Assembly (NCBI GenBank): GCA_017515595.1
Contig: JAFWFL010000028.1
Coordinates: forward strand, 1-38,907
Source: Coriobacteriales bacterium
Lineage (GTDB): Bacteria; Actinomycetota; Coriobacteriia; Coriobacteriales; UMGS124
Reading direction: 5' to 3'
DNA length: 38,907 nt
Shown: positions 3,879-36,192 of the stretch, one piece after another
Numbering within the stretch: position 1 is the stretch's first letter
How the letters are laid out: each line of letters starts with the position of its first letter
The notes under the pieces: generated by a model
Database searches by the model: none
What the model saw: the letters and a program-made list of their open reading frames with translations, nothing else
Told to the model about the DNA's origin: nothing
Made by a program: the position numbers and the translations under genes

Positions 3879-6155
3879 TTATGCAGATGCCTGAGCAAGA
3901 ATGTCGGCCATAGCAGTAAAGATTGCCTTGCTTGTTACACTGGCGCCACTAACGCCATTAACACCATCTACACCGTTGGCTTCAACAATGAGCGCGGGGA
4001 GTTGCTCAATAGCCTTAGAACCAATACCCTGGGTTTCTCCGTTTGCGCCTACCTCGACGCTTACAATCTTGCCGCCTTCGATGGTAACGGTAAGCGGTAC
4101 TTTACCGCCAATACCCTTGCCGGTTGCCTCGTAGACGCCGTCCTTGTAGGTTGCACCTGATGCTTCGACCGGAGCAGCCTCGCCTGCAGGAGCGCCACCC
4201 TCAGCGCCGGGACCACCGGCTCCGGGACCGCCTGCACCGGGGCCGCCCGGGCCCATGCCGTTTGCAGACTGCTTGGGAGCGGCATTGTTAAGTCCAAGCG
4301 TGGTGGGAGCATCAATATCTGCGGTTGCAAGGTATTCGCCAAGGCACATTCCGAGCGTGAGGCACATACCAATCGAAACACCGTTCATAATGCCGTTATA
4401 GCCCATGGGGAAGCGGCCGCCCGAAGTATTACCGGTTGCAAAGAGACCCTTAATGGGTTCAAAGCCCTGGCCCTGGACCTGCTGGTTCTCGGTGACGAGA
4501 AGACCTGATGTTGAGACCAGAGAACCGCCGCCTGCGCGCTTGCTTGCGGCAAAACCATAGAACGGGGGAGTAGCGATGGGCCAGATGAGCTTGGGATCAC
4601 GGCCAAACTCTTTGTCGACGCCGCTCTGGGCTGCTTCATTCCAGGCCTGAACCTCGGCGAGAGCGTTTGCTGCGACCTCGGGCTCCATGCCCAGGTATTC
4701 AAAGAGCTCTTCAAGGGTATCGGCGCAGAAGAGGTATTTGCCGCTTGCGTCATAACCCTCAGGACCGCTGCCAATGGCGGCTTCCATGTTCTGGGCAATC
4801 TGCTCAACAGATTCCTCACGCCAATCCTTAAGAATAAGATGACCGGCGATGTGGCTCAGGAGGACTTCCTTCCAGTTAGCGTCCCAAACGGTGTAAATAA
4901 TGGTACCGGGCTGCTTTGCGGTTGCGCAGCCTGAGAGGAGCGGTCCGCCGTAAGCCTCATTGCAGAAGCGCTTGCCGTACTTGTTGAGCCAGATGGTCTC
5001 GGTTGACTCCATGGGAGTCATGAGCATGGCTGCGTGGCTGCCCATGTCGCCGCCGGTTGCAATCTCAACCTTGGCGCCAATGCGCATAGCCATGGCGATG
5101 CCGCTGCCGTCGCGGCCTGAGAATGAACGGCAGTCCGAGTACTCGCCAAGGGCATAGTTCTCGCCGCAAATGGCATTGTACATCTGTGAGTTGCTGCCAA
5201 TGTCACCGCAGGCAAGAACAACCGCCGGGGCATTGAACTGAACATATGAACCGTCTGCACGCTGTGCAATAACACCGGTAACCTCAGTGCCATCCTCATT
5301 GTGGACCAGACGGACAGCGGTAGTCTCGTACTGGAACTCAGCGCCGGCGTCCTTGGCGATTTGCTGGGTGCGGAGCAAAGCCTCGCGCAAACCAACGCTG
5401 CCGCCAAAGTTGGGAGTACCAACGTAGCTCGTGAAGAGCTTACCGTAGTTGTAATCATAACCTTCAGCTGCAGGCCAGTTCAGGCAGACAATACCGGCCT
5501 TCTCGTCATCAGAGAGATTATCAATAAACCAGTCAAACGCTTCGCCCGAGCGGTGCGCAAACTGGCTGATCAAGCCCCACTGCGCACGGCCGGCGCAATA
5601 GATTTGATACTCATTGATAAAGGTAGCCTCATCGTAAACAGGAATACCGTTGATCTCGGTCTGCCACTTGGAATTGAGGTGTCCAATGTCATTACCAAGG
5701 ACACTAAAGGTATCCTCTGCCTGGGGATCAATAACAATTACTTGTGCGCCAAGCTCGGCTGCCTTGCGTGCGCAAGCTGTTCCCGAGTGACCGGCGCCGC
5801 ATACAACAATCTGAGTATCGATGGTCTCGGCAATATCAGTGATTTCGGGCTCTTCGCCAAGCCAGCCTGCACCTAATACCTGGCCCATTGTTTTGCCTGC
5901 ATTACCCTCAAAAGTCATGCCTGCAGCAGGAGCGGCAGCAGCTGTATCTGCTGAGGGAGCATCCGCGCCCATAGGAGCGCCTGCACCCGGAGCGCCGGCA
6001 GGAGCTTCTGAAGCAAACGCGGTGCCTGCAAGCGCTGCGCCGGCAAAAGCCATGCCTGCGCCGGCCATGAATCCGCGACGGGTGCATGTGGCAGGTACCG
6101 GAATTGCACCACGAATGTTTTCGAGACGCGCTTTGATTTCTTGCTGAGTTGCCAT
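3879..6155 (-). CDS. Tat-exported flavoprotein reductase with C-terminal FMN-binding domain
   Basis: The 758-residue, two-flavin product resembles the urocanate/fumarate/acrylate reductase type, in which a covalently held FMN hands electrons to FAD at the active site. The Tat signal is unusual: about 25 residues precede TRRGFMAG (Arg26-Arg27). The FAD motif VVCGAGHSG ends near residue 125. A Gly/Pro/Ala-rich linker of PGAGG repeats joins to the FMN_bind domain (about 668-758), whose VSGASVTS matches the flavinylation motif. There is no heme motif. The start is the ATG at 6155, preceded by AGAAGG; an upstream in-frame start at 6200 would hide the Tat signal further. The same strand carries a LuxR regulator downstream beyond a terminator. 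The substrate is unknown. Confidence 0.9.
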   Translation of the reverse strand: MATQQEIKARLENIRGAIPVPATCTRRGFMAGAGMAFAGAALAGTAFASEAPAGAPGAGAPMGADAPSADTAAAAPAAGMTFEGNAGKTMGQVLGAGWLGEEPEITDIAETIDTQIVVCGAGHSGTACARKAAELGAQVIVIDPQAEDTFSVLGNDIGHLNSKWQTEINGIPVYDEATFINEYQIYCAGRAQWGLISQFAHRSGEAFDWFIDNLSDDEKAGIVCLNWPAAEGYDYNYGKLFTSYVGTPNFGGSVGLREALLRTQQIAKDAGAEFQYETTAVRLVHNEDGTEVTGVIAQRADGSYVQFNAPAVVLACGDIGSNSQMYNAICGENYALGEYSDCRSFSGRDGSGIAMAMRIGAKVEIATGGDMGSHAAMLMTPMESTETIWLNKYGKRFCNEAYGGPLLSGCATAKQPGTIIYTVWDANWKEVLLSHIAGHLILKDWREESVEQIAQNMEAAIGSGPEGYDASGKYLFCADTLEELFEYLGMEPEVAANALAEVQAWNEAAQSGVDKEFGRDPKLIWPIATPPFYGFAASKRAGGGSLVSTSGLLVTENQQVQGQGFEPIKGLFATGNTSGGRFPMGYNGIMNGVSIGMCLTLGMCLGEYLATADIDAPTTLGLNNAAPKQSANGMGPGGPGAGGPGAGGPGAEGGAPAGEAAPVEASGATYKDGVYEATGKGIGGKVPLTVTIEGGKIVSVEVGANGETQGIGSKAIEQLPALIVEANGVDGVNGVSGASVTSKAIFTAMADILAQASA

Positions 6156-6376
6156 GTTGGTCCTTCTTTCTTTTGAAATCAATGGACAAGCCTGCAACAA
6201 AACAGTCTTATATAAAGATCATTTTCACCGGACAAGTTGTTCTGTTGCGTTGTGTTGACACATGACAGACTATAAAAAACAACAAGAGTGATAACAATCG
6301 TGAAACCTTGATTTTGTAATTTCCCTAAGTGCCACGACCCTCAAGGAAACTGATGATTAGGTTTATTAAACTGCAG

Positions 6377-8668: not shown

Positions 8669-8675
8669 GTGCAGT

Positions 8676-8819
8676 GTGGTGGTATAGCCGCAGCGGCTGC
8701 AGTGGACAAGATAAGCGACGTCTTCTGTACAAGTTGCGGTCCGGTTAATGACTTCTCTGCTATCTCAGCAGCGTGAGCGACAAAAGACTCACCAGAGAAA
8801 ACCATTTATGTGTCTTCAT
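8676..8819 (-). pseudogene. Truncated, internally deleted copy of the surface-protein gene 5' end
   Basis: Read on the minus strand, this region matches the start of the surface-protein gene (15352 downward). The copy opens with a strong GGAGGAGG ribosome site and ATG at 8819. It encodes MKTHKWFSLVSLLSLTLLR and then a TAG at 8760-8762. After about 128 bases missing relative to 15174-15301, homology resumes with codons for EVINRTATCTED and the first CxxC zinc-ribbon-like motif. It ends abruptly beside the PII-like gene at about 8676. Only a short peptide could be made. Its importance is that codon 5 is AAA here, where the full-length gene has TAA. Confidence 0.8.
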
Positions 8820-8963
8820 GGCGTGTTCCTCCTCCTTACATAAGATGGTCAGAACTCATGAGATACAAGCGGGTTGATGCGCTGTCTAGTCTATCCAAAA
8901 GCAAATATCGTTATATCTCAATCTGGGAGATATCGGCCAGAAGCTTGAAAGTATCTGCGAACC
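8676..8963. repeat. Duplicated segment, copy 1 (partner 15090-15497)
   Basis: The segment is nearly identical by eye to 15090-15497, apart from the roughly 128-base deletion in this copy. The similarity covers the first codons, the ribosome site and about 140 bases of upstream sequence, then fades near 8963. Both copies have the same orientation, about 6.4 kb apart. Confidence 0.85.
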
Positions 8964-8989
8964 GGGATATGTGGCCAATTACTTGCCCC

Positions 8990-9490: not shown

Positions 9491-11476
9491 ATGAACATGT
9501 CACGTCGCTCATTTGTCCAGGGTGCAGGTCTTGTTGTTGCATCAGCAGCTATGGCAACCACCGCAAGCGCTCTTGCCGAGGAAGCCCCCGCTGCCGAGAT
9601 AGCCTGGGACGGCGAAGCTGATATCATTATCTGCGGTCTTGGTGTTGCCGGTCTGGCTGCCGCTATTACCGCAACCGTTGAGGAGCTTGGTACCACTATT
9701 AACCTCGAGGCCGCTCCCAAGCGTGCCCGCGGCGGTAACTCCTGCTGCACCCAGGGTGTTGTGTTCTGCCCCAAGGACAAGGAATCTGCAATTATTTATC
9801 AGACCGTTCTGAATGACCCCTACTACGTCCCCGCTGACATTATTGACGCATGGGCAGAAGAGATTCCTCAAAACATTGATTGGCTTGAGAATGTCTGCGG
9901 TATGCGTTGGCATGAGCCTTCAACCGGCGAGCCTTGCTATTTCTCACCAATTGGCGAGTTCCCCATGATGACCGGTGCAGAGAATTGTCCCTGCTGGAAG
10001 CCTGTTACTCAGGAATTTGGCCAGGGTCAGACTTGGGGTTCCATGGTAGCCAAGTTTGATGCGCTGGGTTGCCCCGTTTATTACGAAGCCCGCGCTATCA
10101 AGCTCATTCAGGATGCCGAGGGCAAGGTTATTGGCGTTGAGTGCGAAGACGGCCGCAAGTTCAAGGGTAACAAGGGTGTTCTTCTTGCTACCGGTGGTTT
10201 TGAAGCCAATCCCGAGATGATGGAGATGTACAACGCAACCGGTCATCCCAATATGATTGGCAAGGGTACCCCTTACAACCGCGGCGACGGCATGAAGATG
10301 GCCCAGCGCCTGGGTGCTGACCTTTGGCATATGAATAACATCTCTGGCTGTATGCTCGGCTTCAATGTTGTTGCCAACAGCGAGTTTGATTATCGCGCTT
10401 CATTCGCACACAAGACCTGCGAGTACATTTATGTCGACAAGAACGGCGAGCGCTGGATCAACGAGAGCGTTGAGGGACTTCAGGGCCTCGCACTTCATGG
10501 TAAGTATTATCACAACGGTTCCTGGATGGATATGCCTCATCCTGATAACTGCTGGTGCATTATGGGCCAGGGTTGCTATGAGGCCGGCGGTTATACGTAT
10601 AATTACAACAACTTCCCGCATCGTAAGGCTGTTGACGGTGTTTGCTGGAATATGGAAGACACCATTGCCGCAGGTATCACGGTTAAGTGCGAGACTATTG
10701 CCGACATCGCAACCGTTACCGGTCTTGACGAGCAGACCCTCACCAATACCATCAACTTCTACAATGATAACGCTGCTCAGAACATTGATCCCATCTTCCA
10801 TCGCGGTGTTGCACTTACCCAAATGGGCGACCAGCTCATCGAGTACGGCCATGAGGACGAGACACCCAAGGTCAAGGCCTTTGACCTTATCCCCATCAGC
10901 GCGCCTTACTATGTAACCGCTCTCAAGGGCTGCATGTACAACACCCAGGGTGGCGTTAAGCGTTCGCCCAACTGCGAAGTTCTCACCATTGATGGCGAGC
11001 CAATCCCCGGTCTTTACGCTGCCGGCGAGAATGGTTGCGAGTATGCATACATCTACAACGTAGGCGGCAACATCTCCGAGAGCATCAGCTCCGGCCGTCG
11101 TGCAGCCCGCGTTATGCTCACCGGTTCTCCTGCAGCCGGCGTCTTTAATCCTGACGCAATGGCTACCAACGCTCTGCCCAAGCCTGAGGCCGTTGTGAGC
11201 GATGCTGTTTACAAGGATGGCACCTACATTGGCAACGGCGTAGGCATTAGCGGCCCGCTCCAGGTAAGCGTTACCATTGAGGGCGGCAAGATCGCTAACG
11301 TTGAGGTTCTTGATCCCAAGGAGACCCGTGGTATTGGCGACGCAATTGTTATGGCTATGCCCGAAGTCATCAAAGCCGCTAACGGCACTGAGGGTGTCGA
11401 GGTCTTCTCCGGCGCTTCAACCACCTCTCACGGCATCCTGGTAGCAGTTGACGAGGCTCTTGCACAAGCCATGTAA
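9491..11476 (+). CDS. Tat-exported flavoprotein reductase with C-terminal FMN-binding domain
   Basis: The 661-residue protein begins with a canonical Tat signal (MSRRSFVQG, Arg5-Arg6) ending near ASALA. The FAD motif IICGLGVAG is at about 46-54, and the C-terminal FAD contact GLYAAGENG is present. A C-terminal FMN_bind domain (about 572-661) contains VFSGASTTSHG, the predicted covalent FMN site. No heme motif is seen. The fold and two-flavin layout fit fumarate/urocanate-type reductases; the acceptor is unknown. The start is ATG 9491 after GAGAAAGG, with a second ATG two codons later. No regulator gene is adjacent, unlike the other reductase clusters. A strong bidirectional terminator follows. 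Confidence 0.9.
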   Translation: MNMSRRSFVQGAGLVVASAAMATTASALAEEAPAAEIAWDGEADIIICGLGVAGLAAAITATVEELGTTINLEAAPKRARGGNSCCTQGVVFCPKDKESAIIYQTVLNDPYYVPADIIDAWAEEIPQNIDWLENVCGMRWHEPSTGEPCYFSPIGEFPMMTGAENCPCWKPVTQEFGQGQTWGSMVAKFDALGCPVYYEARAIKLIQDAEGKVIGVECEDGRKFKGNKGVLLATGGFEANPEMMEMYNATGHPNMIGKGTPYNRGDGMKMAQRLGADLWHMNNISGCMLGFNVVANSEFDYRASFAHKTCEYIYVDKNGERWINESVEGLQGLALHGKYYHNGSWMDMPHPDNCWCIMGQGCYEAGGYTYNYNNFPHRKAVDGVCWNMEDTIAAGITVKCETIADIATVTGLDEQTLTNTINFYNDNAAQNIDPIFHRGVALTQMGDQLIEYGHEDETPKVKAFDLIPISAPYYVTALKGCMYNTQGGVKRSPNCEVLTIDGEPIPGLYAAGENGCEYAYIYNVGGNISESISSGRRAARVMLTGSPAAGVFNPDAMATNALPKPEAVVSDAVYKDGTYIGNGVGISGPLQVSVTIEGGKIANVEVLDPKETRGIGDAIVMAMPEVIKAANGTEGVEVFSGASTTSHGILVAVDEALAQAM

Positions 11477-11579: not shown

Positions 11580-11634
11580 ATAAAAACAGAGGCGTATCCC
11601 GGTTTGAAGAGCTGGGATACGCCTCTGTTTTTAT
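11580..11634. terminator. Strong bidirectional terminator
   Basis: A perfect 21-bp stem runs from 11580-11600 to 11614-11634 (core AACAGAGGCGTATCCC and its complement), with A-run and T-run flanks and a 13-base loop. It separates the plus-strand reductase from the minus-strand secreted-protein gene and can serve both. Confidence 0.9.
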
Positions 11635-11700: not shown

Positions 11701-12549
11701 TTACTTTGCCTGAGTAATGGGGCCGGAGGGGGCTTTGGCCAGGTAGATGATCATCTCACCGGTTGGAGAGGCGAGGGTCATGCGGAGATGGCCGTCTTGC
11801 AGGAGGACGATCTCAATTGAGAGAGAATCAGACACGGTTGCTTTTAGTGCACCTTCCGAGAAGGTGAAGTTAACAAAGACGTCGCCAAAAAGTTCGCCGC
11901 CCATGGCCACGCGCTCGCCGTCAATATAGATGTCAGTTTTTTCGCCCAAAATTGAAGACTCAATGGGAGCGCCGCCGAGGCTTACATATGCGCTCTTCCA
12001 ATAGCCTGCGAAGGATTCGAGAGAAGCGGCCGAGTCAGCTTTTGCGGGAGTGTAAGAGCCCGGCTCCGTACGATAGAAGACTATCTCGGCATCTGTCCAT
12101 ACAAGCAGCTCTGCTTCAGGTGCAGCCGAGAAGGACTCGGTGGCATCAGACAAGGCCGGCTTTGCAGAGTCGGCTTTGGCATCCTCTGCGGAAGCCTGCG
12201 TAGCAGAATCTTCAAGTGCGGGTTTCTCGGCCGTATTACCGAAATATGCCGCGCCGGTGGTTAGGCTCAGCGGAGAGGTTGCGTCGCCATCGAGCAACAC
12301 AAGGCCGTCATGTTGCTCCCAGGTGCCTTCGCTGGATTCATTAGGGAGAGCAGGGGAGGCAAAGGTATATGTGCCGTCTTCAGCAAGGGTCAGCTGCAGA
12401 GGAACGCCGTTCAGATCAGCATACCAGTTGCCCGCGGCGCTTGCAGGCGGTTCGTTAAGCCCGGAAGCTTTGGCTTCCTGTGCCAGTGCAGCAGGCATGG
12501 GGAGCAGCAGCAGGACAAACGCCAGCAGCAGAACAACGTATCTTTTCAT
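11701..12549 (-). CDS. Secreted protein with two lipocalin-like repeats
   Basis: I do not recognise a named family. The 282-residue product has a Sec signal peptide (MKRYVVLLLA, hydrophobic core, cleavage after about Ala23 at AALA) without a lipobox cysteine. Two beta-rich segments follow: GNWYADLNGVPLQLTLAEDG (about 40-100) and GYWKSAYVSLGGAPIESSI (about 180-275). They are joined by an Ala/Ser/Asp/Glu-rich linker, and both start like small lipocalin-type barrels. The start is ATG 12549, set by AAAGGAGAAAC; an in-frame ATG 18 bases earlier lies on top of that site. It follows the large surface-protein gene by about 90 bases on the same strand, so the two are probably co-transcribed. Confidence 0.7.
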   Translation of the reverse strand: MKRYVVLLLAFVLLLLPMPAALAQEAKASGLNEPPASAAGNWYADLNGVPLQLTLAEDGTYTFASPALPNESSEGTWEQHDGLVLLDGDATSPLSLTTGAAYFGNTAEKPALEDSATQASAEDAKADSAKPALSDATESFSAAPEAELLVWTDAEIVFYRTEPGSYTPAKADSAASLESFAGYWKSAYVSLGGAPIESSILGEKTDIYIDGERVAMGGELFGDVFVNFTFSEGALKATVSDSLSIEIVLLQDGHLRMTLASPTGEMIIYLAKAPSGPITQAK

Positions 12550-12640
12550 GACAGTTTCTCCTTTCATTGTTGGGTACGTGGCTGGTAGAGAGATGATGAA
12601 TCATGCACGCTACCAGCTATGTGTCCCGTAATGTGCTCTA

Positions 12641-15325
12641 TTACTTGCCGTAATCCACGTAAGCGGAATCTGTAGTTACCCAGGTTCCTTTGCTGTCGGT
12701 GATAATGCAGAAGTAGGTGCCCGGTTCTGTTGCATAGTAGGTGGATGAGTTCCCATAACTAATGCTGTTGGTTACAACTTGACTGTTTATCTCAGCCACA
12801 ACCCGGGTAATTTGGGATGCAACGTCCTGCTCGACAAGCTCTTCTTGCCGATTCCTTACCATACCGGTATAGATGAACGCTTCTTCCATCTTAGATTTAA
12901 CAGAGGATGCTTGTTTAACGAATTGTTCTGCGATGATAATGGGGCTTATAGTATCCAGACGCTCGAGTGGTTTTATTTTTTGGGATAAAGCCCAGTCTTC
13001 CACGCGACGCCATTCAAAGGTATATGGTGCCACACCGCCTTCTACTTGCGCGGTCAGGACAAGAGCACTACCGGAAGAGCCGTCAGGGAGAAGCCCGTCT
13101 GTTGGATGTTGGGCGACGATGAGTGGTTTGTGCGGCTTGAAGGGCGGTAGATCAGGAGATTCAGGAAGAGTTTTAAATTGCGATTCGGTGACGGTAACCG
13201 TGTTTGAAAGTGCCCGGCGGCCCGAGGATTCCGCTACATAGAAGCAATACTCGCCTGGTTTATCGACGGTTATTTCTGCGTGCAGCGGGTTGGGGTCATC
13301 CTCGGTTTTTTTGGTAGAATCGTATAAGTTACCATCTTTGTCATAAAGATAGTACACCAAAGAATTCGAGTAGGTCATTGTGCTGTTCGCTATAGTGATG
13401 CCGAGCATGTATTTGCCGGTAACCGCAGACAGTGCACCGCCTTTGGGCTGCTCTTCGATGATAAGCGGCTCGTCATCTTCAAACCATGGAAGCGTAACAA
13501 TAACCGCATTGGAATCTGCCCAGCGGCCCGTGGAATCCTCTACATGGAAGTAATACTCACCGGGATGTCTGGCTTCCCATTCGTAATACAACCGATCGGG
13601 GTCATCGCTGCTTTTCTCGGTAGGCCCATAGTATAATTTGCCGTCATAATAGACCCAATACTTCATTGGTCCTGTACCGTCGGCCATAGTGATACTAAGC
13701 TTGTAATAGCCGAGTACTTCGGAAAGCCGGCCGCCCACAGGCTGGACCGCTATGGTAAGGCCGCCGTCCTCATCACTATGTGACCAGCGCGCGGAGTCTT
13801 CTGGATACTCGCTTGAGTTCTGTCCGGTGACAGTAACCGTATTGGAAAGTGCCCGGCGGCCTGTGAACTCCTTTACATAGAAGTAATACTCACCCGGCTG
13901 ATCGACGGTTGTTTCGTAGTGCAGCTTATCAGGATCATCCATGTATTTTTCGTAAGAAGAATATAATTCATCGTCTTTATAAAGACAATACTCCATCGAT
14001 GATATTGTTGCTACATCGTCCGCCATAGTGATACTAAGTGTGTATTTACCGGTATCCTTAGACAGTGCACCGTCTTTGGGTTGTTCTTTGATGATTAGTG
14101 GCTCATCATATGAAACCATAACCGTACCGGTAACAAGGTCGGAATCTGCCCAGCGGCCTGTGGAATCCTCTACATGGAAGTAATACTCACCTTGGTGCCG
14201 GATCTTTATTTCGCAGTACAACCGGTCGGGGTCATCTCCGCTTTTTTCGATAGGCGACCCGTATAATTCGCCGTCTCTGTAGAGCCAATATGTCATTGAT
14301 CCTGTACCGTCAGCCATAGTGATGCTGAGTACGCGATAACCGAGTACATCGGACAGCCGGCCGCCCACAGGCTGGACCGCTATAGTAAGGCCGCCGTTCT
14401 CATTGTTATTTGGCCGCCTGATGCGCAGCTGAGCAAGAAGCCCTGCCGCGCTTTCAAAAGACTGGGATTCGTTTAACGCAAGATCCCCGTTGTCGATAGA
14501 TTCGGCCGCCAGTGTGTCGCCGGCGAGCCACGCCTGAAGTCCCGTCCAGCCAATGCCGGTTGGATCATGGCCTGCAGCTTGCTCAGCAGCTTCTGTCGCA
14601 GCTTGTGTCATTGGTCCAAAAGAACCGTCTGGCTCGCCGCAGTCAAAGCCGTTTTGATTGAGAAGAACCTGGAAGGCTGCTACGGCATCGCCCTGCTCTG
14701 AGGGGAAAAGAGTACCTTCAAGATAGTATTCAGTTTGCTCTGTTGCACCGCAGAGCGCACATACGTGCTCACGGACGCCGGAAGACCAAGGAGTGGCTTC
14801 TGTGAGGATGTTCCACTCACCAAAAGAGTGGGGCGCTAAAGGAGTTTCTTCATCAAGTGTTGTCCCGCAGCGGGAACAGGTATATCTATAGATACCCGGC
14901 TCTGTGCAGGTAGCTTCCTGTATGACTTCTGAGAGAATAAAGTCGTGATCTAACACAGGAAGATATTCTGTCTCCACCTCTCCACAGCGGGAGCATTGCC
15001 GCCCCAGTATGCCGGGCTCTGTACAGGTGGCTTCTTCTATCGTGAACCACTCACTCCAGTCATGGCCCAAAGCAGGTGTGGTAACAAGCGTGGTGGTATA
15101 GCCGCAGCGGCCACAGCGGACAAGATAAGCGGCATCTTCTGTACAAGTTGCGGTCCGGTTAATGACTTCTCTGTCACTCCAGCTGTGAGCACCTCCTGTA
15201 GCAGGACAGTAGTCATCAGTAGCTTCCTCGGCGTCCACCGGGACGCCTCCATAGATGGCTCGTGCCGCAAATGCCGCAGGCGTCACCCCCACCAGAAGTA
15301 CCAGCGTGAGCGACAAAAGACTCAC
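12641..15325 (-). CDS. Large repeat-containing surface protein; native start disrupted by an early stop codon
   Basis: The frame from GTG 15325 gives 894 residues. The order is: residual signal peptide (LLSLTLVLLVGVTPAAFA); four Cys-repeat units with CxxC pairs near 71/74, 111/114, 150/153 and 189/192 and CTEPG motifs; a peptidoglycan-binding_1-like segment (about 201-258); then Ig-like repeats in A-B-A-B order (about 300-720) plus a degenerate fifth. No LPXTG anchor is seen, so retention may be through the peptidoglycan-binding part. The only good ribosome site (GGAGGAGG) precedes ATG 15352, but that reads Met-Lys-Thr-His-stop. The paralogous fragment at 8819 has Lys (AAA) where this gene has TAA. 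Expression would require readthrough or restart at GTG 15325, which has no Shine-Dalgarno and a shortened signal n-region. It may be a recent pseudogene. Confidence 0.75.
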   Translation of the reverse strand: MSLLSLTLVLLVGVTPAAFAARAIYGGVPVDAEEATDDYCPATGGAHSWSDREVINRTATCTEDAAYLVRCGRCGYTTTLVTTPALGHDWSEWFTIEEATCTEPGILGRQCSRCGEVETEYLPVLDHDFILSEVIQEATCTEPGIYRYTCSRCGTTLDEETPLAPHSFGEWNILTEATPWSSGVREHVCALCGATEQTEYYLEGTLFPSEQGDAVAAFQVLLNQNGFDCGEPDGSFGPMTQAATEAAEQAAGHDPTGIGWTGLQAWLAGDTLAAESIDNGDLALNESQSFESAAGLLAQLRIRRPNNNENGGLTIAVQPVGGRLSDVLGYRVLSITMADGTGSMTYWLYRDGELYGSPIEKSGDDPDRLYCEIKIRHQGEYYFHVEDSTGRWADSDLVTGTVMVSYDEPLIIKEQPKDGALSKDTGKYTLSITMADDVATISSMEYCLYKDDELYSSYEKYMDDPDKLHYETTVDQPGEYYFYVKEFTGRRALSNTVTVTGQNSSEYPEDSARWSHSDEDGGLTIAVQPVGGRLSEVLGYYKLSITMADGTGPMKYWVYYDGKLYYGPTEKSSDDPDRLYYEWEARHPGEYYFHVEDSTGRWADSNAVIVTLPWFEDDEPLIIEEQPKGGALSAVTGKYMLGITIANSTMTYSNSLVYYLYDKDGNLYDSTKKTEDDPNPLHAEITVDKPGEYCFYVAESSGRRALSNTVTVTESQFKTLPESPDLPPFKPHKPLIVAQHPTDGLLPDGSSGSALVLTAQVEGGVAPYTFEWRRVEDWALSQKIKPLERLDTISPIIIAEQFVKQASSVKSKMEEAFIYTGMVRNRQEELVEQDVASQITRVVAEINSQVVTNSISYGNSSTYYATEPGTYFCIITDSKGTWVTTDSAYVDYGK
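12960..14420 (-). repeat. Alternating A-B-A-B Ig-like repeat array within the surface protein
   Basis: Unit A begins GGLTIAVQPVGGRLS and ends STGRWADS. Unit B begins EPLIIxEQPKxGALS and ends TGRRALSNTVTVT. The order A1-B1-A2-B2 shows that an A+B pair was duplicated as one block, and the DNA of A1/A2 and of B1/B2 is visibly similar. A worn fifth unit (KPLIVAQHPTDGLLP) follows. Boundaries are approximate. Confidence 0.75.
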
Positions 15326-15497
15326 CAGAGAAAACCATTAATGTGTCTTCATGGCGTGTCCCTCCTCCTTACATAAGATGGTCAGAACTCATGAGATACA
15401 AGCGGGTTGATGCGCTGTCTAGTCTATCCAAAAGCAAATGCTGTTATACCTCCGTCTGGGGGATATCGGCCAGAAGTGCGAACGCATCTGTGAACAG
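15090..15497. repeat. Duplicated segment, copy 2 (partner 8676-8963)
   Basis: This is the parent copy, covering the first codons and upstream region of the surface-protein gene. It contains the 128 bases missing from copy 1. Point differences are few near the ribosome site and increase toward 15497. Confidence 0.85.
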
Positions 15498-15714: not shown

Positions 15715-17504
15715 ATGTTCAAAAACAACGACACATCCAAGGGTAACCTCGATAGGCGCACTTTTGTCAAGGGGGCAGTGGCAGCAGCTGCAGCCACAGT
15801 CGCCGCTGACGGTGTAGCATTTGCTCAAGAGGCAGCAGAGCCTGCTGAGGAAGAAGATTGGTACGGCAATCCCGGTGTTCCGGGCTATATGTGCTGCGGC
15901 GACTGGCTTGGCCAGGCTCCTGTAATTGACCCGTCTGAGATTGTTGCTACCTATGAAGCTGACATCATTGTCTGCGGCTCCGGCCATGCGGGAACGCAGT
16001 GCGCTCTTGCAGCAGCACAGGGCGGCGCCAGCGTTATGGTTCTTGAGTTGCAGGCTGAGGATAAATATATGGCTCAGGGCGGCGGCGTCTGCACATTTAA
16101 CTCAAAGTGGGCAACCGACCTTGGCCTTGGCGGATACGACATTGGCGAAATCACCGCTGAATACACCCGCCGCGCAGGCCAGACTGCCAATGCTGAACTT
16201 ATCCGCCAGTATATCGCTAACTCCGGCGAGATGCTTGACAACCTCGTTTCCATTACTCCTGAAGAGAGCACCCAGTTTAAAGTTCAAGAAGGCCATGAGG
16301 GAGACCTTATCCAAATAGCTTATGACAAACCCAAGGGCAGCGATTATCCCGTTGAGCTTGGCGGCTTTAAGATGTGGGCTGCGTGCTACTTTGTTCGTAT
16401 GACCGAGCTCGAAACCAACAGCCGCAATGCAGCTAAAGCACTTGGCGCCCAGTGGTTCTTTGAGAGGTACGCCACCGTTCTGGTACAGAACGAGAATGGC
16501 GATGTGACCGGCGTTATCGCCAAGGGTCCCGACGGTTACGAGCAGTTCAACGCTAACAAGGGCGTAGTCATCTCCACCGTGACTTTGCTGACAACGTAGA
16601 GATGATTGTTCAGCTCCTCGACCTCGTCAACGAGCTCGACATGCGTAACAACATGGACCCGCAGATGATGAAGGGCAGGAGCGGCCGCGATGGTTGGGGC
16701 ATCAAGATGGGCTGCTGGGCAGGCGGCTTTATCGAGAGCCATCCGCGTTCCTCCATGGCAACCATCATGGCGCAGCCTGGTCCGTTTGGCACCACGCCGC
16801 TTCTCCATTTGAATGCCCGCGGCAAGCGCTTTATGAACGAGGGTATGGGCCCATACTTCAAGCAGAACATGATTCGTCAGCCCCATGGCAATATTTACTC
16901 CATCACCGACGCCAACTGGTTCGAGAGCATTAAGGTTGCCGGTTGCGACCATGGCGCACCTATCTTTGGTATCTATCCTGGACAGCATGATACCATGATT
17001 GAGAATATGTCACATGTAGTAGAAGCAGGCGAAGAGGGCTATGATGTTCTCAACACCTCCCAGGGCAGAGGCGTAACCGGTAAAGTCTGGGGTGCCGAGA
17101 CACTCGAAGAGCTTATGGATCTCCTTGGTCTCGAGGGTGAGGACAAGGAAACCGCCCTTGCAGAGATCGCTCATTACAATGAGCTCTGCTACGCCGGTGT
17201 TGACTCGGATTATGGCAAGGATGCCTGTGCAATGATCCCCATCGATACCCCGCCGTTCTATGGCTCAAAGAAGGAACACGACGGCACCAGCACCGCAAGT
17301 CTCGTCACCTTCTGCGGTCTTGTCACCGATGACCACATGAACGTTGTAAAGGGCGACTACACACCCATCAAGGGTCTTTATGCCGCCGGTAACTCCCTGG
17401 GCTGCCGCTGGGGTGGCGGATACAGTGCTCCTGTAGCCGGTTCCTCCATTGGTTTCGCTATGACCCACGGACGTGTTCTTGGCAAGTATCTCGCAGCTCT
17501 GTAA
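15715..17504 (+). pseudogene. Frameshifted Tat-exported flavoprotein reductase (no FMN domain)
   Basis: Two adjacent frames encode one reductase. The first (15715-16599) has a Tat signal (LDRRTFVKG, Arg14-Arg15) and the FAD motif IVCGSGHAG (about 85-93), then runs out of frame after KGVVIST. The second (frame through 16602-17504) carries the rest, including GLYAAGNSLG near the end. Restoring one G at about 16578-16580 (ACCGTGAC to ACCGGTGAC) gives continuous ISTGDFADNVEMIVQ, matching the ACGDIGSN stretch of the paralog at 3879-6155. The repaired protein would be about 596 residues. No slippery heptamer or pseudoknot is evident, so this is a real mutation or a sequencing error. The ribosome site AAAGGAGG is intact. 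Confidence 0.85.
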
Positions 17505-23733: not shown

Positions 23734-24324
23734 ATGTCAAAGGGCAAGCATTACATGCTGCCGCAGGCATCGTCGGCGCAGTGGCAACAGGAATTAGAGC
23801 GTGAGCGCTATAGGGTAAACTATAGGCGCACCTTGAGGAACACCATCTATTCTCTGGTGACAGTTGCTGCTGTATCGGTTTTGATTGCTGTTTTGTTGCT
23901 TCCCGTCTTACAAATCTACGGAACATCAATGAGTCCAACCCTTGACGAGGGAGAATTTGTTGTTTCGGTAAAGGGCAGTGATTTCACCACCGGTGATGTT
24001 ATTGCGTTTTACTACAACAATAAGATTCTCGTTAAGCGTGTAATAGCCAGTGCGGGTGACTGGGTAGATATTGATAAAGACGGAACGGTCTATGTGAACA
24101 GTGTTAAGCTTAATGAACCGTATGTTACCGATCTGTCACTTGGCGATTGCAATATCGATTTCCCATACCAAGTCCCCGAGTCGCGCTTCTTTGTTATGGG
24201 AGACCATCGCAACATCTCAATAGATTCACGTAACACAAGTGTAGGTCCGGTTTCCGATGAGCAAATAGTCGGTAAAATCGTTTTCAGAATATGGCCTTTA
24301 GATAAATTGGGGGTGATCAGATAA
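23734..24324 (+). CDS. lepB: Signal peptidase I
   Basis: The 196-residue type I signal peptidase has one N-terminal membrane anchor (about 37-60). The catalytic Ser65 lies in YGTSMSPTL and Lys101 in the LVKRVIA box. The last conserved box reads GDHRNISIDSR, with His where the usual motif has Asn (GDNRxxSxDSR). Placed upstream of the pilins, it probably processes their signal peptides, as SipA-type enzymes do in other pilus islands. It is 5 bases after the coiled-coil gene. About 220 AT-rich bases separate it from the major pilin, so that gene likely has its own promoter. Confidence 0.9.
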   Translation: MSKGKHYMLPQASSAQWQQELERERYRVNYRRTLRNTIYSLVTVAAVSVLIAVLLLPVLQIYGTSMSPTLDEGEFVVSVKGSDFTTGDVIAFYYNNKILVKRVIASAGDWVDIDKDGTVYVNSVKLNEPYVTDLSLGDCNIDFPYQVPESRFFVMGDHRNISIDSRNTSVGPVSDEQIVGKIVFRIWPLDKLGVIR

Positions 24325-24545: not shown

Positions 24546-25973
24546 ATGAAAGTCATAAAAAGAATGTTAGCTATAGTCGCTGCATTGGTAATGATGCTGG
24601 CTATAGCAATTCCGGCAATGGCAGTTGACAGCAGCCAAGGTGGAAGTGCATCCATTACCATCACGCTTCCGACTACTGAGGTAGCTCCGACAACTACAAC
24701 AACTTACAAAATCTATAAGGTGTTTGATGCCACTAGTAATGGTTCTGATGCTATCGCTTATAGACTGGTTGAAGGAAAGACCGCAGCACCTGCTGGGTTT
24801 ACCGTTGATGCGGTAGGAAATGTTACATATTCCGGAACATCTACGACTGGTGAGTTAACGGATGCAGATATTGCTGCAATTGCTGGATACGTGACAAATA
24901 GTGACCTGGTGTATACAGCTGAAGTTGCTGCCGGAACTGCCTCAGTTACAATTGAAAACTTGCAATATGGTTATTACTACATCACTACTACAACTGGTAC
25001 TGCTGTAACAATTGATAGTACAAATCCTGACGCAACTGTTAATGATAAGAACGTGATTCCTCCTGTTGTAAAATCTGCAGGAACACAGTATGATGCAGCA
25101 TCTCTTAAGGCAATCGCTGCAGTTGGAACTTCGCAGCCGTTCACAGCAGTTATTACAAAGACACATGGTGCAACCAATCTGGTATTTACCGATACCATGA
25201 CCGATATGTCTTATAATGGCGATGTCGAAATTACTGTATCTGCCGGTACTGCTCCTACCGCTGCGCAGGCTGTAGTGACTACCACAGCAACAGGATTCAC
25301 CGTAGCATTTGATAATAACTACATTGCGGGTCTCGCAGATGGAACAACGATTACATTAAAATATTCAGGAACGATTTTGTCAGATGCCCTTTCAGTTAAT
25401 CCTGCAAAAAACAAAGCAACCCTTACATCTGGTGAAGGCAATACATCTACAAGTGAAGAAGTAGAAGTATATAATGCTAAGTTTACTGTAACAAAACAAG
25501 ATGATAAGCAGAAACCTCTGGCAGGCGCTGGGTTCGTTATCAAAAACTCTGAGGGTAAATATTACAAACTGAATGCAGCAACCAGCACGGATCCAGCTTC
25601 CATTACATGGTATGAACTTCCTTCAGGAACTAAACTCGCTGATGCTATTACTGCTGGCAACATCACAGAGCACACCTCTGATTCTACAGGCGCAGTTGCA
25701 GCATTCACTGGTCTTGCAGATGGCACCTATACTCTGGTTGAATCCACTACTCCTGCCGGTTACAACACTGCTGCGGATTACGAATTTACGATTGCTGGAA
25801 ATGATTACACTACAACGAATCTCGAGCAGAGCACTACGGTTGTAAATAATACCGGTCAAGAGCTTCCTTCCACCGGTGGCATTGGTACCACGATCTTCTA
25901 CGTAATCGGCGCGATCCTTGTCATCGGAGCAGGCGTTGTCCTCGTAACCCGTCGCAGAATGAATGTTCAGTAA
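24546..25973 (+). CDS. Major pilin, LPXTG-anchored, fimbrial isopeptide type
   Basis: The 475-residue precursor has a Sec signal (cleavage near AMA, residue 26) and a Thr-rich N domain. A D2-type isopeptide domain follows (about 170-310): VNDKNVIPPVVK at its start carries a candidate pilin or isopeptide lysine, and NPAKNKATL a candidate Asn. A Cna-B/SpaA-like D3 domain starts KFTVTKQDDKQKPLAGAGF and has an E-box, YTLVESTTPAGY. The sorting signal LPSTG (440-444), hydrophobic helix and RRR tail complete it. It should be polymerised by the class C sortase downstream. The ribosome site is AGAAAGGAATGG. A terminator immediately follows, so it may be made in excess over the sortases. Confidence 0.9.
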   Translation: MKVIKRMLAIVAALVMMLAIAIPAMAVDSSQGGSASITITLPTTEVAPTTTTTYKIYKVFDATSNGSDAIAYRLVEGKTAAPAGFTVDAVGNVTYSGTSTTGELTDADIAAIAGYVTNSDLVYTAEVAAGTASVTIENLQYGYYYITTTTGTAVTIDSTNPDATVNDKNVIPPVVKSAGTQYDAASLKAIAAVGTSQPFTAVITKTHGATNLVFTDTMTDMSYNGDVEITVSAGTAPTAAQAVVTTTATGFTVAFDNNYIAGLADGTTITLKYSGTILSDALSVNPAKNKATLTSGEGNTSTSEEVEVYNAKFTVTKQDDKQKPLAGAGFVIKNSEGKYYKLNAATSTDPASITWYELPSGTKLADAITAGNITEHTSDSTGAVAAFTGLADGTYTLVESTTPAGYNTAADYEFTIAGNDYTTTNLEQSTTVVNNTGQELPSTGGIGTTIFYVIGAILVIGAGVVLVTRRRMNVQ

Positions 25974-26309: not shown

Positions 26310-27134
26310 TTGAAGCGGCATTCGTCTACCATAGGGCTGGTATTGATCTTTTTATTTGGATTAATCCTGCTGTTATATCCCTCGTTCAGTGATTGGTGGA
26401 ACCAATTTCATCAATCCCGTGCGGTAGTGAGTTATGCAGAGACAGTTGCCACCATTGATAACCCGGCTTACGAACGTATGTATACAGAAGCTGTGGAATA
26501 TAATGAAAGGCTTAAAGAATCCGAAATTCACTGGATACTGACCCCAGAAGAAATGGATGAGTACAACAACACGTTGTGCGTTACCGAATCGGGAATTATG
26601 TCTTATATTGAGATCCCTGCTATTAACGTTATGTTGCCGGTATATCACGGAACTGAGGGTACAATTTTACAAGTTGCGATTGGACATCTCGCGGGGACAA
26701 GTCTTCCGGTTGGAGGAGAAAGTACCCATTGCGTTCTTTCGGGTCACCGGGGACTTCCAAGTGCAAGATTGTTCACGGATCTTGATAAACTTGTTAAAGG
26801 TGATATATTTTTTATTAGAATACTTGATGAAGTGTTGACATATGAAGTCGATCAAATTAGGATAGTAGAACCAACAGATCTGAGCGATATTGTGATCGTT
26901 GAAGGTCAGGATTATTGCACGTTGGTTACCTGCACACCGTATGGTATTAACACGCACAGATTGTTAGTACGCGGTCATCGTGTCGAGACGGTTACAAATG
27001 CAACGGTGCGTGTAGTAGCAGACGCATTGCAGGTGGGAACTGCGATAGTTGCTCTCTTTATCGCAATTCCGATTCTTTTGGTGTTGATGATTATTGTGTT
27101 GTTGACTTCGGGAAGAAGTAAAAAGCGCGCGTAG
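26310..27134 (+). CDS. srtC: Class C (pilus-polymerising) sortase
   Basis: The 274-residue transpeptidase has an N-terminal membrane segment (about 8-25), a pre-catalytic lid region with DNPAYERMY, and the triad His146 (SGHRGLP), Cys208 (TLVTCTPYG) and Arg217 (HRLLVRGHR). A C-terminal hydrophobic helix and basic tail are typical of class C. It cleaves LPXTG pilins and links them through a pilin lysine. The start codon is TTG at 26310 with a clear TAGGAGAACG ribosome site. It precedes the minor pilin by 11 bases. Confidence 0.9.
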   Translation: MKRHSSTIGLVLIFLFGLILLLYPSFSDWWNQFHQSRAVVSYAETVATIDNPAYERMYTEAVEYNERLKESEIHWILTPEEMDEYNNTLCVTESGIMSYIEIPAINVMLPVYHGTEGTILQVAIGHLAGTSLPVGGESTHCVLSGHRGLPSARLFTDLDKLVKGDIFFIRILDEVLTYEVDQIRIVEPTDLSDIVIVEGQDYCTLVTCTPYGINTHRLLVRGHRVETVTNATVRVVADALQVGTAIVALFIAIPILLVLMIIVLLTSGRSKKRA

Positions 27135-27145
27135 AGTAGGCTGCC

Positions 27146-27835
27146 ATGGAACGTATACGTAGGTTAGTTATTGGAATAATCATCATGGCTATTATGACGA
27201 TAGCATGCTGCTCATCTGCATTTGCAAGTGAGCATGCGAATCATGTGCCAGATTATTCAAGATTAGGATCAGTGTCTGTACAGATTCTCACATCCGATGG
27301 CACACAGGTACCTGGCGGTGAGCTGACGGCTTATTTTGTCGCCCAGGCAGAAGACCATGACGGCAATGCCGAACTTGTATTTACGTCAGAATTCGCAGCA
27401 TGCGGTCTTGATCTCTCTGTAATTAGTTCAGAGAAGCCCGGTGCTCCCGAGCTCGCAAAGAGTCTTGCCGATTATGCTACTTCCAATGGTCTGACCGGTA
27501 CGGTAGTAACAATAGACAATTCGGGAAAAGGATTGTTTACCAATCTTAAGCTTGGTCTTTATTTAATTGTGCAGAATAAGCCTGCAGAAGGTTACAACGC
27601 AATTAACCCGTTTGTGATTACCGTTCCTCTTTGGGATGGCAATGAGTATTTGTACGATGTTGATGCAAATCCAAAACCAGAAACAGCTACAAAGATTACA
27701 CCTCCTCCCGATCCTCCCACTCCTCCGGATGTGCCTCAAACAGGTCAGCTTTGGTGGCCGGTGCCTGTTCTTCTGGCTGTAGGTATTGGAATCTTTGCTC
27801 TTGGCGTTGTAATGCGTCGCAGGACTACTAAGTAA
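27146..27835 (+). CDS. Minor/basal pilin with VPQTG sorting signal
   Basis: The 229-residue precursor has a Sec signal (cleavage near AFA) and a beta-rich body. LGLYLIVQNKPAEGY and NPFVITVPLWDGNEYLYDV are typical of SpaA-like pilins, ending in DANPKPE, a pilin-motif-like lysine context. A Pro-rich stretch precedes VPQTGQLWWPVP, a sorting-signal variant with Val for Leu and the WPxP extension common to a subclass of pilus subunits. It is probably a base or ancillary subunit. The stop overlaps the next sortase start (TAATG), so this pair is likely matched as substrate and enzyme. The ribosome site is weak. Confidence 0.85.
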   Translation: MERIRRLVIGIIIMAIMTIACCSSAFASEHANHVPDYSRLGSVSVQILTSDGTQVPGGELTAYFVAQAEDHDGNAELVFTSEFAACGLDLSVISSEKPGAPELAKSLADYATSNGLTGTVVTIDNSGKGLFTNLKLGLYLIVQNKPAEGYNAINPFVITVPLWDGNEYLYDVDANPKPETATKITPPPDPPTPPDVPQTGQLWWPVPVLLAVGIGIFALGVVMRRRTTK

Positions 27836-28446
27836 TGAAGCGAGCTTTTTCCGTTATCTTCATGCTCGTGGGCGTGCTTTGTGTTGTCGCAGCGTTTTGG
27901 CTTGTGAAATATAACCAAGACGAATCAGAAGCTGCCGGTAAAGATTCAGCGCGAGTGTTGGATAGCTTACAAGTAACAATATCTGACAATATAGGAGAGC
28001 CCTCAACGGTCTCTCCTTATGAGGCTTTGTCTGATAATCCGCAAATGTCGGTAGAGTTTATTGAAGGCTATAACTATATAGGCGTGCTGGAGATTCCGTC
28101 AGTCAAGATTCTCTTGCCGGTAATGGATACCTGTGATTATGAGCGTCTAAGTATTGCTCCCTGCAGATTTACCGGTACGTATTATACGAATGATCTTGTT
28201 ATATGCGGACACAACTACTCAACGCACTTTTGGCCGTTACTTGATGTGAACATCGGAGCGGATGTATATCTTACTACAACCGACGGGAACGTTTATAAAT
28301 ACATTGTTGTTAACCGCGAGGATGTGGCACCGACTGCCGTAGATACTATTATAAATAATAATAATGGAGAGTGGGATTTAACCCTATTTACCTGTGACTT
28401 TAGCGGCCAGAACCGTTGCTGTGTACGATGTGTGCTTAAGAAATAG
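27835..28446 (+). CDS. Second sortase, coupled to the minor pilin
   Basis: The 203-residue sortase has an N-terminal membrane anchor and the triad His126 (ICGHNYSTHF), Cys187 (TLFTCDFSG) and Arg194 (QNRCCVRC). It lacks a C-terminal membrane helix, unlike the class C enzyme upstream, and looks closer to class B/D-like sortases. The one-base overlap with the VPQTG pilin suggests it attaches that protein, and with it the pilus, to the wall or to another subunit. The cysteines flanking Arg194 are unusual. A strong terminator follows. Confidence 0.8.
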   Translation: MKRAFSVIFMLVGVLCVVAAFWLVKYNQDESEAAGKDSARVLDSLQVTISDNIGEPSTVSPYEALSDNPQMSVEFIEGYNYIGVLEIPSVKILLPVMDTCDYERLSIAPCRFTGTYYTNDLVICGHNYSTHFWPLLDVNIGADVYLTTTDGNVYKYIVVNREDVAPTAVDTIINNNNGEWDLTLFTCDFSGQNRCCVRCVLKK

Positions 28447-34494: not shown

Positions 34495-36192
34495 CTAGGA
34501 GATCCTCAGGAGGTCAAGCTCGGGAAGAGGCTTGGTGCTTTCCATGTTAGCAAAGTCAGGAAGCGGGCCGGTGAACTCTTCTGGACCGAACCAATCCTCG
34601 GCAGGCTCAATGCCAAGCTCGTTCTTAACAATGCTCAAGCCACCAATGCAGCCGCTCCACAGGCCAACGTGCTGAGCAGTGCCCATAGTATACATACTGG
34701 TATTGAAGCCGCTTACAGCGATGCCACCGGCATAGAGACCCTTAACAGGTACGTAATAGGGGTCAACAACCTGGCAGTCGGTGTTAATACGGATGCCGTT
34801 ATTGGTCTGCATCAAGAGTGAGGAGAGCTCGCATGCATAGTAAGGAGGCTCGCCAAACGGTACCATGAATGACGGATCCTTGCCAAACTTGGAGTCGCCG
34901 GTGCCAGCCTTGGCCTCTTCATCATAGAGCTCCATGTCGGCTACGAACGGCTCTACCGGAACACCAATCTTCTCGGCAAGCTCAGCGAAGCTGTCAGCCT
35001 TGACAACGCTCGGATACTTGTCGATCTCGGCAAGTTCTGCAGAAAGATCAGTGGGGACGTTGTAATAATAGAATGCCCTCGCGTCAGAGCCCATCTCCTG
35101 GAAGCGGTCAATAAGGCCCTGGCCTACGATTGACCAAACCTTGCCCTGTTGCATGAAGCTATGGTCAACATGGACAAATGAGCCGGCATAGTTCTCATTA
35201 TGGAACCTGGTGCCGTACTGGTTTACAAAAACGCCGGCATTTTGCATAGCAAGGCAGCAGTTGAGCGGTGACTCAAGCGACATGCCCTTGACCAAAGCCC
35301 ACATGGGGGTGGGGTCAACGGCCTTGGCCCTGCCGTGTGCGGTGTATTCAGCCATGAGGTGACCGTCGCCATCCTGGCCAAAGCCATACGGGGTGGTCTT
35401 CTCGATAACGTCTTCACCGGTGTAGTACTCGAGGAGCTCAGTATTGGTGCCCATACCACCGGTAGCAAGCATAACAGCCTTTGCGTTGATGTTTATATAT
35501 TCGCCGGTATCAACATCCTTTACCTGAATACCGGTTACTGTGTGCTCATCTTCCTTAAGAAGGGCAATGCCTTGGCAGTTGAGACGGATCTCAACATTTG
35601 CGAACTCGGGCAGAGTGGCGCACTGCTCAACGAGATGCTGAATTGCTGAAGCGCCGGTGTGTCCCTTATAATAGAAATGGTCGGGCGACTGCTCAACGCC
35701 ACGCTTGGTAAAGTACCATGCGCTGACTTTGCCGTTATCTGCATAATAATGTGCAAACAAGAACGGGTCGGTAAGCTCATACTGGCCATAAACTTTTTCC
35801 ATTGCCTTGGCAAGAGCCTCTTCCCAGCTCATTCCCAAGCCGCCCTCGTTAATCTCGGCGAAGTTAGTGTTACCGCCGGCTACCGGCATTTTATCAATAA
35901 GAAGAATCTTGGCATCAGGAGCCTGCTCAGCAGCGACCATGCCGCAACACATACCGCAAACACCGGTACCAACAACTACGATGTCAAAGTCCTCTACCTT
36001 GTCGGTGTCATGGACAGTACCAATCTCATCGGGGTTTGGATACTTAAGATACCGGGTGCCAATTCCCTCTGCGGGAATATAAAGCGGATCCTCAGCAATT
36101 GCTGATGATGCGCCTAAAACACCGCCTGCAAGTGCTGCCGCGGCTGCTCCGGTCAAAAAGTTCCTTCTTGTCATAGTGTCAAACTTAGCCAT
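34495..36192 (-). CDS. Tat-exported FAD-dependent fumarate-reductase-like flavoprotein (no FMN domain)
   Basis: The 565-residue flavoprotein has a Tat signal (MTRRNFLTG, Arg9-Arg10; Ala-rich core; ends near SAIA). Its FAD motif VVVGTGVCGMCCG (about 72-84) carries three cysteines, and PVAGGNTNFAE lies just after. The C-terminal FAD contact GLYAGGIAVSG is followed by NTSMYTMGTAQHVGLWSG. It lacks heme and FMN-binding motifs. The sequence is clearly different from the other four reductases in the window, suggesting a different acceptor. GGAAGGAG precedes ATG 36192. It is divergent from a membrane LuxR regulator gene across a 298-base control region, the clearest regulator-target pair here. Confidence 0.9.
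   Translation of the reverse strand: MAKFDTMTRRNFLTGAAAAALAGGVLGASSAIAEDPLYIPAEGIGTRYLKYPNPDEIGTVHDTDKVEDFDIVVVGTGVCGMCCGMVAAEQAPDAKILLIDKMPVAGGNTNFAEINEGGLGMSWEEALAKAMEKVYGQYELTDPFLFAHYYADNGKVSAWYFTKRGVEQSPDHFYYKGHTGASAIQHLVEQCATLPEFANVEIRLNCQGIALLKEDEHTVTGIQVKDVDTGEYININAKAVMLATGGMGTNTELLEYYTGEDVIEKTTPYGFGQDGDGHLMAEYTAHGRAKAVDPTPMWALVKGMSLESPLNCCLAMQNAGVFVNQYGTRFHNENYAGSFVHVDHSFMQQGKVWSIVGQGLIDRFQEMGSDARAFYYYNVPTDLSAELAEIDKYPSVVKADSFAELAEKIGVPVEPFVADMELYDEEAKAGTGDSKFGKDPSFMVPFGEPPYYACELSSLLMQTNNGIRINTDCQVVDPYYVPVKGLYAGGIAVSGFNTSMYTMGTAQHVGLWSGCIGGLSIVKNELGIEPAEDWFGPEEFTGPLPDFANMESTKPLPELDLLRIS

Follow-up and report, generated by a model that had tools for sequence, protein, structure and literature searches.

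The window, by which we mean the whole stretch of 38,907 nucleotides, carries on its minus strand a long surface-protein gene (C55_1) with a stop codon directly after its start, and a short duplicate of the 5' end of that gene (C55_2). The features considered below are listed by position, with the basis on which each was recognized.

8672..8965, minus strand: remnant duplicate C55_2, comprising the upstream region, the first 17 codons, an internal deletion and a short out-of-frame tail (sequence comparison)
11701..12567, minus strand: downstream partner gene for a small exported protein, intact, 288 aa (67% identity to the gene 3' of C66a, a further copy described below)
12641..15337, minus strand: remainder of the C55_1 frame, with signal peptide core, Cys-x2-Cys repeats, peptidoglycan-binding domain and repeats (translation)
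14552..14695, minus strand: PG_binding_1 domain of C55_1 (Pfam PF01471, E 9.8e-07)
15323..15325, minus strand: GTG, the sole nearby in-frame restart codon from which most of the signal peptide would still be made (sequence)
15338..15352, minus strand: C55_1 start and derived codon-5 stop, ATG AAG ACA CAT TAA, with ATG at 15352-15350 and TAA at 15340-15338 (sequence)
15361..15368, minus strand: Shine-Dalgarno (SD) site GGAGGAGG of C55_1, 8 bases 5' of the ATG (sequence)
15715..17504, plus strand: neighboring FAD_binding_2 gene with a frameshift near 16580 (two ORFs in different frames cover the first and second parts of one Pfam domain)

The original prediction placed a nonsense codon at position 5 of C55_1 (ATG to TAA, 15352-15338), behind a strong SD site, and on re-reading of the sequence both the coordinates and the codons were correct. 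The translation runs MKTH*WFSLVSLLSLTLVLLVGVTPAAFA..., and after the TAA the next stop is met only at the end of the frame, at 12641. The claim that about 890 further codons follow, with a signal peptide, was likewise borne out, as the frame is open for 898 codons past the TAA, or 894 counted from the GTG at 15325. Chance is out of the question for this start, since the SD site, the start codon and the signal peptide are common to homologous copies. The predicted protein has Cys-x2-Cys repeats after its signal peptide, then the PG_binding_1 domain and further repeats, and the natural reading of these domains is that members of the family are exported and probably wall-associated. A homologue of the partner gene likewise sits 3' of C66a, and it is therefore evidently a two-gene unit, surface gene plus small exported protein, that was duplicated.

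The assembled genome (3.30 Mb in 134 contigs; 97.7% complete, 0.58% contamination) holds five copies of the family, namely C55_1, C55_2, two on contig C66 and one on contig C108. The three copies outside the window are as follows.

C66a, start at C66:28155: codon 5 AAA; frameshift around codon 450 (C66 near 26800), which splits it into ORFs of 452 and 482 aa
C66b, start at C66:23359: codon 5 AAA; open, 1171 aa; the sole intact copy found
C108, start at C108:2482, near the contig end: codon 5 AAA; TAA at C108:1993-1991 and a frameshift further on

The TAA in C108 occupies a position that is Gln in its relatives, and the second half of this locus may lie at the start of contig C49, where later repeats occur together with a partner-like gene. 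Ig-like domains were recognized by Pfam in C66b. C55_1 and C66a share 73% identity over 434 aa. An SD site and an ATG are present at C55_1, C55_2, C66a and C66b, and in the latter three the SD site is an AGGAGG-like run 5' of the ATG. Damage affects four of the five copies and differs from one to the next: C55_1 has a nonsense codon, C66a a frameshift, C108 one of each and C55_2 a deletion.

Codon 5 is AAA (Lys) in all four of the other copies in this genome (C55_2, C66a, C66b and C108). For that reason the TAA of C55_1 is, by comparison among the copies, the derived state and Lys the ancestral one, and a single substitution would have made the stop. That the ancestral codon was Lys had been proposed from the duplicate in the window, and with AAA in three additional copies elsewhere in the genome the proposal is firmer than when it was made. 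The comparison is between paralogues within one assembled genome of the species, since searches of 60 relatives and of 397 genomes of the order found no orthologues outside the species, similarity being limited to shared Cys-repeat or peptidoglycan-binding domains. A scan of contigs for orthologues gave a single match, 34% over 58 residues, within the Cys-repeat/peptidoglycan-binding part, and an exact-pattern scan of viral contigs with the start region gave no match.

The duplicate at 8819 had been read as beginning ATG AAG ACA CAT AAA TGG and as continuing from there. The reading holds (start at 8819-8805, with AAA at 8807-8805), but the continuation as a gene does not. Between -86 and +50, C55_2 shares 135 of 137 bases with C55_1, and with C66a and C66b as outgroups both differences arose on the C55_1 lineage: the T in codon 5, and the base directly after the SD site, which is G in C55_1 and A in the other copies. 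After codon 17, C55_2 lacks about 119-120 bp and resumes at gene position 180 (39 of 39 bases match). Past the deletion the frame is shifted and reads MKTHKWFSLVSLLSLTLLR and then a stop, at codon 20. Homology ends near 8672, adjoining the 3' end of an opposite-strand P-II-domain gene. C55_2 is thus no second working gene; what remains of it, some 300 bp, is a fragment of a pseudogene.

To place the codon-5 stop in time, we compared C55_1 with its best paralogue, C66a, over 449 codons. The dN was 0.188 and the dS 0.781 (dN/dS about 0.24), and because of this difference we read the C55_1 frame as bearing past purifying selection; the two lineages appear to have been mostly under such selection. 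In simulations of a neutral ORF of the length of C55_1, the probability that no further stop had arisen was ∼34% at 30 substitutions, 13% at 60 and ∼5% at 100 (3.7%). The stop appears recent because the frame still bears that selection and because a second stop is absent despite these odds. The loss, if it is a loss, would thus date to the last few per cent of the divergence.

Broken genes also occur elsewhere in this genome. Its 3.3 Mb contain more than 110 FAD_binding_2 (fumarate-reductase-like) genes. This very large flavin-reductase expansion has members in the window at 342-2120, 3879-6200, 9491-11476, 15715-17504 and 34495-36192. About 6 of 118 were disrupted, the count being approximate because it includes split matches and matches truncated at the end of a contig. 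Four of these are listed with an in-frame stop, which we read in the sequence for three (C82, C3 and C58), and two are frameshifted (C88, and the neighbor of C55_1 at 15715-17504, where the frameshift sits inside a conserved Gly-Asp stretch). Single in-frame stops or frameshifts in otherwise intact genes of this class were seen at C88, C82, C3, C58 and C105:26116. A hexamer coding-potential scan of 457 kb for stops in otherwise coding frames, which is blind to a codon-5 stop and serves as background only, returned 15 matches; by eye many resemble antisense shadows and about four or five are plausible, an internal nonsense background of roughly one per 100 kb. The rate of broken genes is thus an estimate from the FAD_binding_2 genes and sampled stretches. 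Genes broken by a single lesion are nothing special in this genome, but they are overrepresented in the surface family (4 of 5, versus about 6 of 118 FAD_binding_2 genes; Fisher p about 1e-4).

Of the three fates that had been offered for C55_1, namely that it is dead, phase-varied by conversion, or rescued by a restart, the first fits best. We consider that C55_1 (15352-12641) is probably a recent nonsense null, a young pseudogene in a redundant and partly decayed surface family, and we favor this because lesions unrelated to one another have broken four of the five family members in the genome. Ribosomes that load at the conserved SD site and ATG would stop at the TAA after Met-Lys-Thr-His, and little or no full-length protein would be made. 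Redundancy may have relaxed selection on the family, and the TAA, seen in one assembled genome, would be fixed or common in the strain and the protein absent. The gene seems to be a spare one in ordinary, recent decay, with no new mechanism at work. A disabling change relative to homologues is present (TAA versus AAA), as is a related intact copy (C66b). In the same way, duplicated (unprocessed) bacterial pseudogenes are disabled by a premature stop while intact paralogues exist and the start and most of the sequence are kept (PMC11078800). C55_1 differs from them in that its stop is unusually early, at codon 5, and its frame almost wholly open, so that expression is formally possible.

That open frame is evidence against a null, as a C55_1 undamaged apart from codon 5 would also fit an allele maintained by restarting. 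Ribosomes ending at the TAA might reinitiate at the GTG at 15325 and make a slightly shorter exported protein, and this codon is indeed in frame, 12 bases 3' of the TAA, with the strong hydrophobic core of the signal peptide kept. Reinitiation near stop codons is documented in bacteria (PMC6728339) and lends the idea support, since in C55_1 too a possible start for the remaining frame follows soon after the stop. C55_1 departs from those cases in that its restart codon is a GTG without an SD site 5' of it, 12 bases off and unconserved as a start; the position codes for Ile in C108 and for Val in the other three copies. Moreover, a signal peptide begun there would have no Lys or Arg in its n-region, the positive charges being lost, and the overlapping ATG at the stop (TAATG) belongs to another frame. 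The rescue proposed in the original prediction is thus possible by frame and distance and weak in its signals, and we regard it as unlikely. Much the same doubt attaches to the idea that base 15340 is wrong, through sequencing or assembly, or is a minority variant in a mixed sample. The sequence comes from a single draft assembly that contains other genes broken by single lesions, and near-identical DNA lies 6.5 kb away, yet a mix-up of copies could not create the TAA, because no other copy has one. The lesions are also of varied kinds (TAA, TAG and TGA substitutions, short indels and one deletion), unlike one type of error, they are concentrated in the surface family, and the completeness and contamination values given above speak for the quality of the assembly. 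Reassignment of TAA to an amino acid was ruled out, since TAA is the terminator of most major ORFs in the window.

Switching by gene conversion had been suggested as well. Under this explanation the copies swap 5' ends, the TAA is an off-state that can be corrected by the AAA of another copy, and damaged copies act as a reservoir. Identity tracts at the 5' ends do stand out against the 20-30% divergence of the copies elsewhere: C55_1 and C66a are identical at 57 of 58 bases (+38 to +95), the figure for C66a and C66b is 114 of 122 (-14 to +107), and both are above all 500 shuffles. Such tracts suggest past conversion or strong constraint. C55_2, moreover, holds AAA inside the 137 bp that are near-identical to C55_1, which makes conversion physically possible, and that part of the suggestion stands. 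However, the tract shared by C55_1 and C66a has no bearing on the stop, because it begins past codon 5, and constraint on the translation start and signal peptide may explain the low 5' divergence. There is no inverted (invertible) repeat and no tandem or copy-number tract at the stop of C55_1, and lesion positions differ among the copies. The family resembles silent-copy antigenic variation systems (Borrelia vmp/vls and the functional pseudogenes of Anaplasma msp2; PMC4534519, PMC2789410) in having several damaged surface-protein paralogues with possible signs of 5' exchange. It differs in that the copies keep their own starts and that neither an expression site nor a cassette structure nor any switching was seen; C66a and C66b have their own SD site and ATG, unlike promoterless silent cassettes, and the same signals are present at C55_1 and C55_2. 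We therefore think it highly unlikely that the codon-5 stop is switched in this way. It is similarly very improbable that the family as a whole, five exported peptidoglycan-binding repeat proteins, exchanges 5' ends such that its lesions serve as reversible off-states and its broken members as a store of sequence. A family that did switch would be a variation system open to testing, in a lineage that is poorly sampled, but no observation here demands switching.

As a probable null, C55_1 would offer a clean and well-polarized case of the loss of a gene by a single change directly after initiation. A gene finder is likely to call its frame from the GTG at 15325 as a working surface protein, and that call may well be wrong.

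Searches of the window with Rfam found no RNA elements, and a promoter scan gave a result no better than that of shuffled sequences. A 20-pair hairpin with T-rich ends lies at 11584-11630 between convergent genes and is probably a two-way terminator. Further along the window, an LPXTG pilin-like protein (SpaA fold) and two sortase genes (24546-25973, 26310-27134 and 27835-28446) lie together with a signal peptidase gene at 23734-24324, a cluster that is likely a pilus locus.
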